The notes below the pieces were generated by a model. That model had not been told where the DNA came from and did not search any database. It was given only the letters and a program-made list of their open reading frames with translations. Positions 9,658 through 47,180 of a stretch of 64,000 nt of DNA are shown piece after piece. The number at the start of each line of letters is the position of its first letter. Positions within the stretch are counted from its first letter, which is position 1. The position numbers and the translations under genes are program-made. Source of the stretch: Clostridiales bacterium (GTDB lineage Bacteria; Bacillota; Clostridia; Christensenellales; Borkfalkiaceae); contig SVHN01000001.1 of assembly GCA_015055805.1 (NCBI GenBank), forward strand, positions 1 through 64,000, in the 5' to 3' direction.

Positions 9658-9780
9658 AAACGGCTTATCTACTGCGCAATACTGCGTTAACTGCTACGAA
9701 GATAAGACCTTTACGACCAACAAGGTCGCCGCAGTCCTTATCTTCTAGCGAGCCTTGTCTTGCTTGTATCTAACCCGTTT
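9658..9780 (+). repeat. Intergenic hairpin repeat, copy A
   Basis: Begins AAACGG and ends CCGTTT, with the family 5' module GCGCAATACTGCG and 3' module CTTGTCTTGCTTGTATCTAA. The central stem is GAAGATAAG (9698-9706)/CTTATCTTC (9737-9745) around an inner CGACC-GGTCG hairpin. It lies between the riboswitch terminator and purE, so it is inside the purine leader. See the copies near 32089, 34156, 34283, 43215 and 46952. Confidence 0.8.
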
Positions 9781-9821
9781 AATGGGAACAAATATAAAAA
9801 TACTTACCTAGGAGAATAACA

Positions 9822-10313
9822 ATGAAAAAAGTTGCAGTTATAATGGGGAGCGATAGCGACCTTAAAGTAGTGGAAAAAGCCATTACCACTTTAAAAGCAT
9901 ACGGCGTTGAAACGGAAGTGCATATCTATTCTGCGCACCGCACGCCAGTTGAGGCAAAAGAATTTACGGCAAACGCAAGAGATAACGGAATAGGCGTTAT
10001 CATTGCTGCGGCTGGTAAGGCTGCGCACCTTGCGGGCGCGATTGCTGCAAATACCACTTTACCTGTTATAGGTATTCCCGTTAAAGGTTCGGCACTCGAC
10101 GGTATGGACGCGCTTTTATCAACCGTTCAAATGCCTGCTGGTATTCCCGTTGCGACCGTTGCAATTGACGGCGCGGAAAACGCTGCGCTTCTTGCGATAC
10201 AGATTTTAAGCGTTGAAGATAAAACTTTGGCAGATAAACTTCAAGCGGCAAGAGATGAGAAAAAGGCAAAAATCCTTGAAAAGGATAAGGAAATAAACGC
10301 GCAGTACAAATAA
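9822..10313 (+). CDS. purE: 5-(carboxyamino)imidazole ribonucleotide mutase (PurE)
   Basis: Works at the carboxylation step that makes CAIR. The 163-residue length is normal. GSDSDL, SAHRTP (class I signature; class II has SAHK) and VQMPAGIPVATVAI are present. The loop that is usually AGGAAHLPG reads AGKAAHLAG, and the usual GKxGxxN stretch is shortened to AIDGAENAA. Class I PurE needs PurK to make N5-CAIR, and no purK is in this operon or window. Whether this enzyme uses N5-CAIR or AIR plus CO2 cannot be settled here. It is the first gene after the ZTP riboswitch, with TAGGAG before the ATG. Confidence 0.93.
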   Translation: MKKVAVIMGSDSDLKVVEKAITTLKAYGVETEVHIYSAHRTPVEAKEFTANARDNGIGVIIAAAGKAAHLAGAIAANTTLPVIGIPVKGSALDGMDALLSTVQMPAGIPVATVAIDGAENAALLAIQILSVEDKTLADKLQAARDEKKAKILEKDKEINAQYK

Positions 10314-10324
10314 TCTGCGCAAAT

Positions 10325-10353
10325 AAAAGTGAGAGCAAAACGCTTTCACTTTT
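10325..10353 (+). terminator. Weak hairpin between purE and purF
   Basis: AAAAGTGA (10325-10332) pairs with TCACTTTT (10346-10353). The T run is short, so it may only weaken read-through or act on mRNA decay. Confidence 0.4.
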
Positions 10354-10387
10354 CGGCTTTTATGTGTATTTTGTATGGAGGACTTAT

Positions 10388-44743: not shown

Positions 44744-44776
44744 AGTAAAAATTATATTTTTACGAAAGGTGCTGAC

Positions 44777-45403
44777 TTGAAAAAACTCGTCTTCAAAACA
44801 ATAGCAATAACTTTGGTGGTAACCCTTTGTGCGGCTATGATTACTTTTGGCGCGTTGTCTTTGTTTGCGCCTAAGATATGTGCGGGTTTTTTTGACGGCG
44901 TAGGTAGTTATTCTGCGTCCGTTTTCTTTTATGAAAAGCAGTACGAAAAAACCGACGACGTTAAAGACCTTGCCATCTTAATAGATAAACTTGACGCGGA
45001 CGTTCAGCCTGCGCTTAAAGAGTTTTATCTTGAAAAGATGCTTTTGCGCAGCGACTTTGAAGAGTTTTGTTCAGAACAGGATAAGAAAGACCACGCCATT
45101 TCTTCCAAAGAATACTATAACGGCAGTTACGCGCTTATCCTTGCTAAAAATAAACGCTTAGAAAAGGCGTTGGAGATTTGTTCGGAATACGTTAAAAAAT
45201 CAACCTATACCGAAAACAATCCTTACCGCTTGATTTTATCAGACTATGCCGACGGCGCAACCATAGAAGAACTTAAAGAAATAAAAAATAGCCTTAACGT
45301 GAGAAGAATTTATCTTGACAACGACGAGGGAAGAAAACTCGCCGACCAAGATTTTAAGGCTTTAGATACGCTTATACAACAAAAACAAGAAACTGAAGAT
45401 TAA
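44777..45403 (+). CDS. Membrane-anchored protein of unknown function
   Basis: A 208-residue protein. One N-terminal membrane segment (about 7-30) is followed by an all-helical, charged extracellular or cytoplasmic region without a known motif; the spacing of helices with [18 protein letters not shown] hints at TPR-like repeats. It begins with TTG, preceded by AAAGGTG; no ATG is nearby. It is 16 bases ahead of guaB and has the only promoter seen for both, so it is likely cotranscribed with guaB. Confidence 0.75.
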
Positions 45404-45419
45404 TTATAAGGAGATTATT

Positions 45420-46874
45420 ATGGGTAGTATTATTAAAGAGGGCTTAACTTTTGACGACGTGTTGCTAGTGCCGCAGGCAAGCAACGTTATTCCTGCTAAC
45501 GTTGATTTATCGACGGTATTGACCGACGGAATTAAACTTAATATTCCGCTAATGTCAGCGGCAATGGATACCGTTACCGAATCAAGACTTGCTATCGCTA
45601 TGGCAAGGGAAGGCGGTATAGGTATTATTCATAAGAATATGACCATTGACGAACAGGCTCAGCACGTTGATAGGGTTAAAAGAAGTGAACACGGCGTTAT
45701 AACCGATCCTTTCTTTTTAGCACCTGACAACATGGTTAGCGACGCTTTAAAACTTATGGAAAAATATCGCATAAGCGGCGTTCCTATCACCGAAGGCGGA
45801 AAACTCGTCGGTATTCTTACAAACCGTGACCTTCGTTTTGAAAACAACTTTGAACAACCCATTAAAAATATTATGACCAAGGACAATTTGGTTACCGCAC
45901 CCGTTGGAACTTCTCTTGACGAGGCGCAGAAAATCCTTGGCAAAAACCGTATAGAAAAATTACCTATAGTTGATGAGAACGGATATCTTAAAGGGCTTAT
46001 CACCATTAAGGATATTGAAAAGGCTATTCAATATCCTAACTCGGCAAAAGATAAGAATGGCAGACTTTTGGTCGGCGCGGCAGTCGGCGTATCTAAGAAC
46101 ACCTTAGAACGCGTAGACGCGCTAGTAAAATCAAAGGTTGACGTAATCGTAGTTGACAGCGCGCACGGTCACTCGAAGAATATTCTCGATATGGTAACCA
46201 ATATTAAAAAGGTATATCCAAATCTTCCGCTTATTGCAGGTAACGTTGCTACTGCTGATGCGACCGAAGCACTTATCGACGCAGGTGCAGACGTAGTTAA
46301 GGTTGGTATCGGCCCTGGCTCGATTTGTACTACCCGTATCGTTGCAGGTATCGGCGTTCCGCAACTCACGGCAGTTATGGACTGCGCTGAAAGGGCAGAT
46401 AAGTTCGGCAAAAAGGTTATCGCAGACGGCGGTATCAAGTACAGCGGCGATATAACCAAGGCTATCGGCGGCGGTGCTGCGGCAGTTATGTTAGGTTCGC
46501 TCCTTGCTGGTACTTTGGAAAGTCCGGGCGAAATCGAAATTTATCAGGGCAGAAACTTTAAGGTTTATAGGGGTATGGGTTCACTTCCGGCAATGGCTTG
46601 CGGCAGTAAAGACAGGTACTTCCAAGAGAACGCTAAAAAACTCGTTCCCGAAGGCGTTGAAGGTCGTGTTCCTTATAGGGGCGCGCTCTCTGATATCGTA
46701 TTCCAGATGTGCGGTGGTATCCGCGCAGGTATGGGCTACTGCGGTACTAAGACCATTGACGATTTGAGAAAGAACGCTCAGTTCGTTAAGATTACTAACG
46801 CTGCGCTTATCGAAAGCCACCCGCACGACATATCCATCACCAAGGAATCACCCAACTATTCTCCCAGAGGATAA
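45420..46874 (+). CDS. guaB: Inosine-5'-monophosphate dehydrogenase
   Basis: Oxidises IMP, the product of the purine operon, to XMP on the way to GMP. The 484 residues form a TIM barrel with two CBS domains inserted at about residues 95-205. The catalytic Cys303 lies in GPGSICTTR, and the flap and the NAD-binding sequences (GSKDRYFQ) are present. AAGGAG precedes the ATG. Hairpin repeats fill the region after its stop. Confidence 0.97.
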
Positions 46875-46908
46875 AAAATTCCCCGTCTCATTTATTTGGG
46901 GCGGGGTT

Positions 46909-47180
46909 TTGTTTTATCGGCTCCGCCACAAATTCTAACTGATTTTTGGCGGAAAAATGCTGCAAAATACTGTGCGTTTTACTCGGTTACAGACCACAGA
47001 GGGTATGCTCCCTCGTAAATCGCTTGTCTTTTTTGCATTTTTCTCCCCAAAGCGTATAAATACTAATCAGTCATTTTTTGTAACGTAGCCTTTGTTTTAT
47101 CGGCTCCGCCACAAACTCTGGCTAATTTTTGGCGGAAAAATGTATAAATAATAATCAGTCGTTTTTTGTACCATAATCTT
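46909..47180 (+). repeat. Duplicated intergenic unit around repeat copy E
   Basis: A 51-base block is at 46909-46959 and again at 47092-47142 (4 differences). It contains a CCGCCA...TGGCGG hairpin. A second block beginning GTATAAATA and ending TTTTTTGTA lies at 47054-47088 and 47142-47170. In the second unit the two blocks touch; in the first they are split by copy E (46960-47053). No gene is seen in 46875-47203. Confidence 0.75.
46952..47043 (+). repeat. Intergenic hairpin repeat, copy E (short, inserted)
   Basis: Terminal inverted repeat GAAAAATGC (46952-46960)/GCATTTTTC (47035-47043), 5' module TGCAAAATACTGTGCG, inner GAGGG-TATGCT-CCCTC hairpin (46999-47014), and a 3' remnant CGCTTGTCTT. 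It is the most diverged member of the family. Confidence 0.55.

Follow-up and report, generated by a model that had tools for sequence, protein, structure and literature searches.

Dispersed hairpin repeats of bacterial genomes are best described in Proteobacteria. The ERIC/RU-type miniature inverted-repeat transposable elements (MITEs) of enterobacteria, reportedly about 100–170 bp long, intergenic and mobile-looking, have a conserved consensus, and attC sites lie at the 3' ends of genes. Repetitive extragenic palindromic (REP) elements and bacterial interspersed mosaic elements (BIMEs) are reported as dispersed, clustered hairpin repeats that lie mostly downstream of coding regions, the REPs being 20–40 bp long, in most cases with a GTAG or CGTC tag, and in opposite orientation in many families (excerpts of PMC3733652); part of them lie within 15 nt of a stop codon (excerpts of PMC12306157). 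For attC, a hairpin of R and L boxes with an unpaired spacer, fixed stem irregularities and a variable distal part has been described, in which structure counts over sequence (excerpts of PMC2727003). Here we describe a family of folded repeats found in a 64,000-nucleotide stretch of a Clostridiales bacterium of the order Christensenellales (positions 1 to 64,000, forward strand, of contig SVHN01000001.1, assembly GCA_015055805.1), which as a whole is called the window. We give about even weight to the view that they belong to a class-wide family of hairpin-forming, non-autonomous DNA elements, spread by a trans-acting enzyme that works on the folded single strand. REP and attC would serve as working analogies for such elements, not as memberships.

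Two covariance models were built from this genome alone, R2 from ten type A copies (tip GACC/GGTC) and R1 from ten type B copies (tip GTGTAC/GTACAC); the two types correspond to the two tip subgroups recognized in an earlier note on this DNA. That note had taken six places in the window for one family, and covariance-model searches of the window and of the whole genome bore this out for all six. On the + strand of the window, R1 matched 9650–9785, 32070–32201, 34141–34275, 43200–43330 and 46938–47054, and R2 the first four of these five places. The second tandem copy, at 34268/34271–34402, was found by the R1 and R2 searches of the whole genome. The 46.9-kb copy is a diverged member, matched by R1 only (35.3 bits, E 2.9e-6). 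Weak minus-strand matches at 43.2 kb and 34.1 kb arise because the elements are near-palindromic. The 3' module CTTGTCTTGCTNGTATCTAA occurs four times in the window, against 0 expected, and is absent from 100 window shuffles; genome-wide, a near-identical 3' pattern with up to 3 mismatches occurs 23 times, against 1 for the reversed-pattern control. One of the 23 occurrences (C15:51965) has no partner and looks like a chance occurrence. The features in the window are as follows.

9653..9785, + strand: type A element with a GACC/GGTC tip, between a ZTP riboswitch and a 163-amino-acid (aa) open reading frame (ORF) at 9822.
32070..32201, + strand: type B element with a GTGTAC/GTACAC tip, directly 3' of the stop of a 177-aa ORF and ahead of a 601-aa ORF.
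34144..34275, + strand: type A element, unit 1 of a tandem pair, beginning at the stop codon (34148) of the 601-aa ORF.
34271..34402, + strand: type A element, unit 2 of the tandem pair, with 91% identity over 127 nt within the pair.
43200..43330, + strand: type B element, directly 3' of the stop (43204) of a 551-aa ORF.
46938..47054, + strand: diverged member, within one copy of a local tandem duplication.
47091..47180, + strand: empty copy of the 46.9-kb local duplication, with GGCGGAAAAAT joined directly to GTATAAATA.

We take the 177-aa ORF to be GrpE-like and the 601-aa ORF to be DnaK-like. The copy at 9.66 kb has R box TTATCTAC at 9665, L box GCAATAC, 3' R box GTATCTAA ending at 9773 and an outer stem ATTAAACGG/CCGTTTAAT. 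In the 46.9-kb copy, the R box AAAAATGC/GCATTTTT is fully paired and the L box AAAATAC/GTCTTTT has a T·C mismatch. Behind the 34-kb tandem pair, ATAAGAGATTAGATAC looks like the beginning of a truncated third unit.

Comparison of copies revealed a common anatomy. The unit is a hairpin of about 130 bases, about 108 nt plus the outer stems, and is built, from the outermost part, of an outer stem of 9–10 bp, an R box of 8 bp (consensus NNATNNRC with GYNNCTNN), a spacer, an L box of 7 bp and a distal arm. The spacer between the R and L boxes is unpaired and unequal: one side has 3 nt, in most cases NNC, and the other 2 nt, in most cases TY. The distal arm is mainly of two kinds: type A ends in a GACC/GGTC-like tip and type B in a GTAC/GTAC-like one. 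In alignments of ten copies of each type, stems vary while the internal loops stay conserved. Copies from one genus were collected as 141 rows, in which some elements were seen twice, giving 122 distinct copies from 16 genomes; of these, 119 were kept in the box-pair count and 118 in the wobble test, together with 65 of 68 copies from the order. Pairing of the outer ends, as claimed earlier, was confirmed, but the stem extends 9–10 bp past the TTATATAC/GTATCTAA box before ending abruptly: among the 122 copies, pairing was 0.92–0.93 at positions 6–8 from the R box, 0.79 at 9 and 0.49 at 10, and at background level or lower from position 11 outward. The search that located R boxes required R3 = A with its partner T and, for the outer-stem profile, also the outermost C/T and G of the R box; the invariance of these bases is therefore no result. 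Two mismatches recur within the stem. R4 is a T·C mismatch in 106/118 genus copies and 62/65 order copies, and L5 in 85/118 and 56/65, respectively; the mismatch bases received only half-point bonuses in R-box location. An intrinsic terminator was rejected because a T-run directly behind the hairpin is too rare: TTTT within 10 nt after the outer stem was found on the + and − strands of 13/122 and 9/122 genus copies, and of 4/67 and 8/67 copies in the order set.

Units also occur in shortened and repeated forms. Short forms without a distal arm were found at C1:4225 of this genome and at efp of genome G020. Tandem units abut in the same orientation with a period of about 124–127 bp, and their types may differ, e.g. 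at C1:4278–4659 and C18:93157–93412. Variant units in which one segment is replaced by the largely palindromic GATGCAACGTCACGTTGC were seen at loci L270, L278 and L283, in tandem in the last. In this genome, a further short repeat like TATACCGCAACTATTCACT...TTCACTAAAAT stands beside several elements (L010, L029, L030 and L039).

The pairing of these stems is kept while their sequence changes, as the earlier note had claimed for the middle stem. The 119 genus copies show 53 different pairs at the R box and 38 at the L box, with pairing kept. Covariation, whose lack of significance the note would have taken as a refutation, lay beyond that of 500 shuffles on most measures. With type A, 27 of 40 pairs had two-sided changes and 93.5% of cells were paired, versus 77.9% in shuffles, and 0/500 shuffles were as high on any of the measures. 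With type B, 20 of 39 pairs had two-sided changes and 94.1% of cells were paired, versus 84.6%; 0/500 shuffles were as high on four of five measures, and 5/500 on the count of further pair types. For the other genera of the order, with 71 distinct copies, 91.2% of cells were paired versus 65.8%, with a covariation score of 0.632 versus 0.171, and sliding the partner by 1–3 columns gave a score of at most 0.136. The number of pairs with two-sided changes is weak evidence in this set, being reached by 9/500 shuffles. Covariance-model hits for the 71-copy set were chosen partly by pairing, with no part played by gene context, and pairing in this set is therefore biased upwards.

We also examined which mismatches the stems tolerate. 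If a helix is read as RNA from one strand, G-U should be tolerated on that strand, but A-C should not. With the two mismatch positions excluded, the outer, R and L helices contained 35 G-T and 70 A-C in 2596 cells of the genus set (118 copies), and 31 G-T and 35 A-C in 1430 cells of the order set (65 copies). A small control, 264 cells from the acceptor and T stems of 22 tRNAs in fetched loci, had 23 G-T, 0 A-C and 3 other mismatches. The outer and R helices lean towards A-C in the genus alignments and not clearly so in the order set, whereas the central helix has a slight excess of plus-strand wobble (G-T) in each of the three; tips differ between sets. Since base and central helices point opposite ways, no strand was assigned from wobble. 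We read this as pairing kept at the Watson–Crick level, with no clear strand. The scarcity of G-T and A-C in comparison with the tRNAs is more in keeping with a constraint at the DNA level, or with correction of one arm by the other, than with ordinary evolution as RNA. A function as RNA of the sense strand only was weakened by this scarcity, the per-helix result being mixed.

The position of the copies relative to genes was then compared with random placement. All copies had been said earlier to share one strand orientation and to lie just after a + strand stop codon or a terminator. Within the window orientation is indeed shared, a result of 44 of the 53 genes there lying on the + strand; genome-wide, however, orientation follows the upstream gene, and the 9.66-kb copy lies not behind a stop codon but between the ZTP riboswitch and the next gene. 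Window positions 9540–9785 hold the riboswitch, then a terminator-like hairpin, then the element, then the next ORF, and the element is therefore in the leader of that gene. Of the 122 distinct genus copies, 118 lie behind a same-strand gene, and the R box is at −6 to +15 nt from the upstream stop in 79 (0 to 15 nt in 65); copies outside −6 to +15 nt include second units of arrays. Of the order set, 60 copies have an upstream ORF; it is on the same strand in 55, and the R box falls at −6 to +15 nt in 43. For random positions in the intergenic bases of the window, the fractions are 0.48 (same strand) and 0.051 (0 to 15 nt). The simple ORF finder used mispicked some upstream ORFs (e.g. L095, L082 and L405). 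R-box offsets from the stop cluster at −6, 3–5 and 9–11.

At some loci the hairpin reaches into the gene itself. The stop codon lies inside the R box in 14 genus and 6 order copies, at exactly −6 in 12 and 5, and coding sequence therefore forms the 5' arm. The C-terminal codons of a presumably queA-like gene, as we name the slot gene with an FGD..I C-terminus, form the left arm in this genus and in other genera, and the 3' arm follows this coding arm imperfectly as codons change. Upstream proteins (18 inspected) presumably are mostly housekeeping proteins. Many slot genes have the same neighbours across species; of 49 distant slots, only four lie behind a homologue of this genus's slot gene, all queA-like. 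Two copies of the order set (L401 and L406) are reverse, just ahead of the start of an opposite-strand gene. Outside the order, 20 places were read. Four lie 6–11 nt around the stop codon of an ORF of 147–406 aa, seven (in four genomes) have a 23S 5' end on the left and two a 16S 5' end, in reverse orientation, and one (L429) abuts a tRNA 5' end. Rfam confirmed 23S for L434 and L437, 16S for L445 and tRNA for L429. In these Rfam-checked copies it is the RNA gene, in place of the stop codon found elsewhere, that borders the left end, and the transcribed strand is the other one. The copies adjacent to rRNA and tRNA genes are the strongest argument that anchoring is not just an mRNA matter.

The genome-wide search proposed in the earlier note did find further copies. 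In this assembly (1.73 Mb, 95.7% complete), R2 gave 43 matches and R1 38; pooling the matches listed for the two models gives at least 47 copies, which occupy about 37 slots; nine slots hold tandem units, several of mixed type. Order-wide, a match reached E 1e-6 or better in 79 of 297 genomes, this one among them, which represent 30 of 125 genera and 13 family labels. Across the class, 22 of 391 genomes matched, 18 of them outside the order; the candidates scored per genome numbered 11 in the order-wide and 8 in the class-wide search. An exact 25-base pattern was found in 87 stretches, of which the 80 listed were titled as Clostridia, Clostridiales or (one) Firmicutes draft genomes; many titles among the 80 matches listed name goat, sheep, yak or roe deer gut, and none of the SIG ones do. 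Within one genus, R1 copies per genome range from 0 to 45. G015 has 0 R1 copies at 98% completeness, and some other zero-copy genomes are incomplete drafts.

Corresponding slots were read in related genomes, with 30 loci each for efp, rpsI and iscU of those found. At efp, 4 of 30 loci were filled and 26 matched neither model; at iscU, 3 of 30 matched a model, and the locus of G003 looks like an element remnant. At rpsI, the elements of several relatives are, by eye, remnants or of another type, and several stand behind the terminator. Orthologous slots (efp, grpE and rpsI) carry different types or stems, again by eye. In a three-protein tree of 35 genomes, midpoint-rooted and read without regard to support values, efp-filled genomes are interleaved with empty ones, and element-rich genomes fall mostly in one clade. 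The 46.9-kb local duplication in the window offers a side-by-side comparison: the filled copy has 95 additional bases, and the empty copy has the left arm with the greater part of the R box. The direct GGCGGAAAAAT–GTATAAATA join means that the left arm exists there without the element, a picture that a precise deletion would also give. Positions 46908–46959 and 47091–47142 form a 52-nt direct repeat (92%) within the same duplication.

Other structured sequences were seen at these slots. Terminator-like hairpins at the efp and rpsI loci (L179–L238) swap whole stems between species, with pairing kept, as judged by eye. The rpsI 3' ends of G006 (L216), G048 (L224), G054 (L235) and G043 (L238) carry a second dispersed structured sequence, CCGAAAAAGATTTTGC...GCAAAAGATTTTTTGGGAAGAGGAAGAAC...GTTCTGACGAGC, which is variable, occurs also within L131 near 3008–3257, and gave no Rfam match above gathering in L235. 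Behind it the end of rpsI is repeated, as though the sequence had duplicated the 3' end of the gene.

Like REPs and BIMEs, the present family consists of dispersed hairpins that lie behind genes, clustered and near stop codons. It differs in that the unit is about 130 bp, its stems have no fixed sequence and its tandem units share one orientation; no constant GTAG/CGTC-type tag was found in the two alignments of ten copies. A REP driven by a REP-associated tyrosine transposase was not supported, the Y1 transposase being absent from several element-rich genomes and present in some others. The likeness to attC extends to the folded R and L boxes, the unpaired central spacer, the stem irregularities and the site at gene 3' ends. 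The R boxes (NNATNNRC/GYNNCTNN), however, lack the conserved AAC (R'') and GTT (R') ends, mismatches stand where attC has extrahelical bases, and the 9–10 bp outer stem is extra. Eight PF00589 matches were found in this genome, seven over the cut-off. Three of these proteins were profiled; they scored 70.6, 59.8 and 33.7 bits against an IntI cut-off of 265 and did best as Xer-type or archaeal XerA-type. Membership of the IntI/attC system was not supported, since R-box ends differ and the three profiled recombinases are not IntI. ERIC/RU elements resemble the family in size, intergenic site and mobile look; here, in contrast, mainly pairing and a few bases are conserved. In Rfam 15, the window had no gathering match apart from one tRNA and the ZTP riboswitch, and the best sub-threshold match in the two stretches tested (E 0.023) was far under that family's gathering score. 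No description of this repeat family was recognised among the papers listed from open PMC text. A phage or plasmid origin gained no support: at the sensitivity used, which covers close sequence only, the 34-kb tandem pair had no blastn match in phages or plasmids and one 25-base pattern had no exact match in viral contigs.

We regard a mobile hairpin element as the best explanation because the family proliferates, forms mixed arrays and shares its folded boxes; proliferation itself is indicated by slots that differ between related species and by units in mixed tandem arrays. The fold of such an element would be read as DNA, and the T·C mismatches may be the recognition marks of the enzyme. The 3' arm would be made or repaired by copying the host arm via fold-back or template switching. 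3' arms match the 5'-side sequence, coding sequence included at some loci, and the left arm is of host origin in the side-by-side empty and filled window copies and in the queA-like coding arm. We are more doubtful of a fuller version, in which class-wide mobile hairpins would insert at gene boundaries, namely stop codons and the 5' ends of rRNA and tRNA genes, copy about 18 nt of adjoining host sequence inverted as the closing stem and carry two fixed mismatches through which an undescribed enzyme reads them. The 18-nt host-copy model does not fit at efp.

Several observations weigh against a mobile hairpin element. No mobilising enzyme was found in searches for Y1 and PF00589, which left DDE transposases and reverse transcriptases aside. 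The REP-like transposase whose presence the earlier note had suggested checking (Y1, PF01797) did not appear in this genome (G000), nor in G010, G023 or G007, all element-rich drafts; it was present in 8 of 41 draft genomes, including G003, G019, G008 and G029 (one or two each), and does not track copy number. No cargo-bearing copy was found among 102 type A 3' ends in 80 loci, several of which end nearby: 69 ends were paired within 140 nt, 33 had no near 5' module, and the furthest candidate 5' module within 6 kb was 431 nt away. There is no clear target-site duplication; TTAA stands beside many copies but is palindromic, and other flanks are inverted repeats. Empty slots could be deletions, and several match-free genomes are incomplete drafts. 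The left R box of the efp copy in this genome is absent from empty relatives, and the host-arm model therefore does not hold for every slot. Simple copying would erase the T·C mismatch, the mild plus-strand wobble excess of the central helix would fit a sense RNA, and the tight stop-codon anchoring is not explained by a generic mobile element.

The main rival is a cis-acting mRNA element, in which terminating ribosomes or RNases would act on the hairpin at the stop codon and set expression of the upstream gene or the mRNA end, the two distal arms binding different factors. We consider this possible although unlikely. A same-strand upstream gene and stop proximity above random placement, coding sequence as the 5' arm where the stop lies in the R box, and conserved internal loops in variable stems are all consistent with it, as is the report that REPs within 15 nt of a stop codon stall ribosomes (excerpts of PMC12306157). 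Wobble, however, is rare and shows no tRNA-like sense-strand bias, though the central helix leans so; only 4 of 49 distant slots have a homologous upstream gene, copies are gained and lost between related species, and in some copies of other orders the opposite strand is transcribed. An mRNA role and a mobile element could also coexist, and a mobile hairpin at a stop codon may affect the host mRNA in the way reported for such REPs.

Two further explanations appear very unlikely to us. A classical MITE, that is, an internally deleted insertion sequence with a DDE transposase reading double-stranded terminal inverted repeats, would account for short, repeated, palindromic ends and for a copy number that varies widely among related genomes. 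Yet the ends have no fixed sequence while keeping their pairing, as the 53 R-box and 38 L-box pairs show, the flanks are inverted rather than direct repeats, and the 102 ends include no cargo-bearing copy, DDE transposases being outside the search. It is equally improbable, in our judgement, that the family is a decaying repeat in which template switching keeps correcting imperfect palindromes, with pairing mainly a by-product and no selection on the fold. Template switching can change both arms together, creating or maintaining perfect stems with multibase compensatory changes (excerpts of PMC8794818), and the terminator-like hairpins at efp and rpsI behave in a similar way. Correction would, on the other hand, remove mismatches, and T·C persists in most R boxes of both sets; nor would it account for the conserved internal loops or the sharp limit of the outer stem. 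The earlier note had offered fold selection or gene conversion between arms, and each retains some support: the T·C mismatches argue for a selected fold, while the few G-T and A-C intermediates fit arm-to-arm correction or a constraint on the DNA.

Stop-codon anchoring as such, coding arms, mixed arrays, empty and filled slots and class-wide spread go beyond the earlier reading. A repeat of this kind may break assemblies, and several of the 25-base-pattern matches lie at contig ends. Across many genera of one Clostridia order, the family links a folded element to stop codons and, in other orders, to rRNA and tRNA starts. It thereby provides a natural test of how structure is recognized without sequence, of how compensatory changes originate without wobble intermediates, and of whether stop-codon hairpins tune housekeeping genes.

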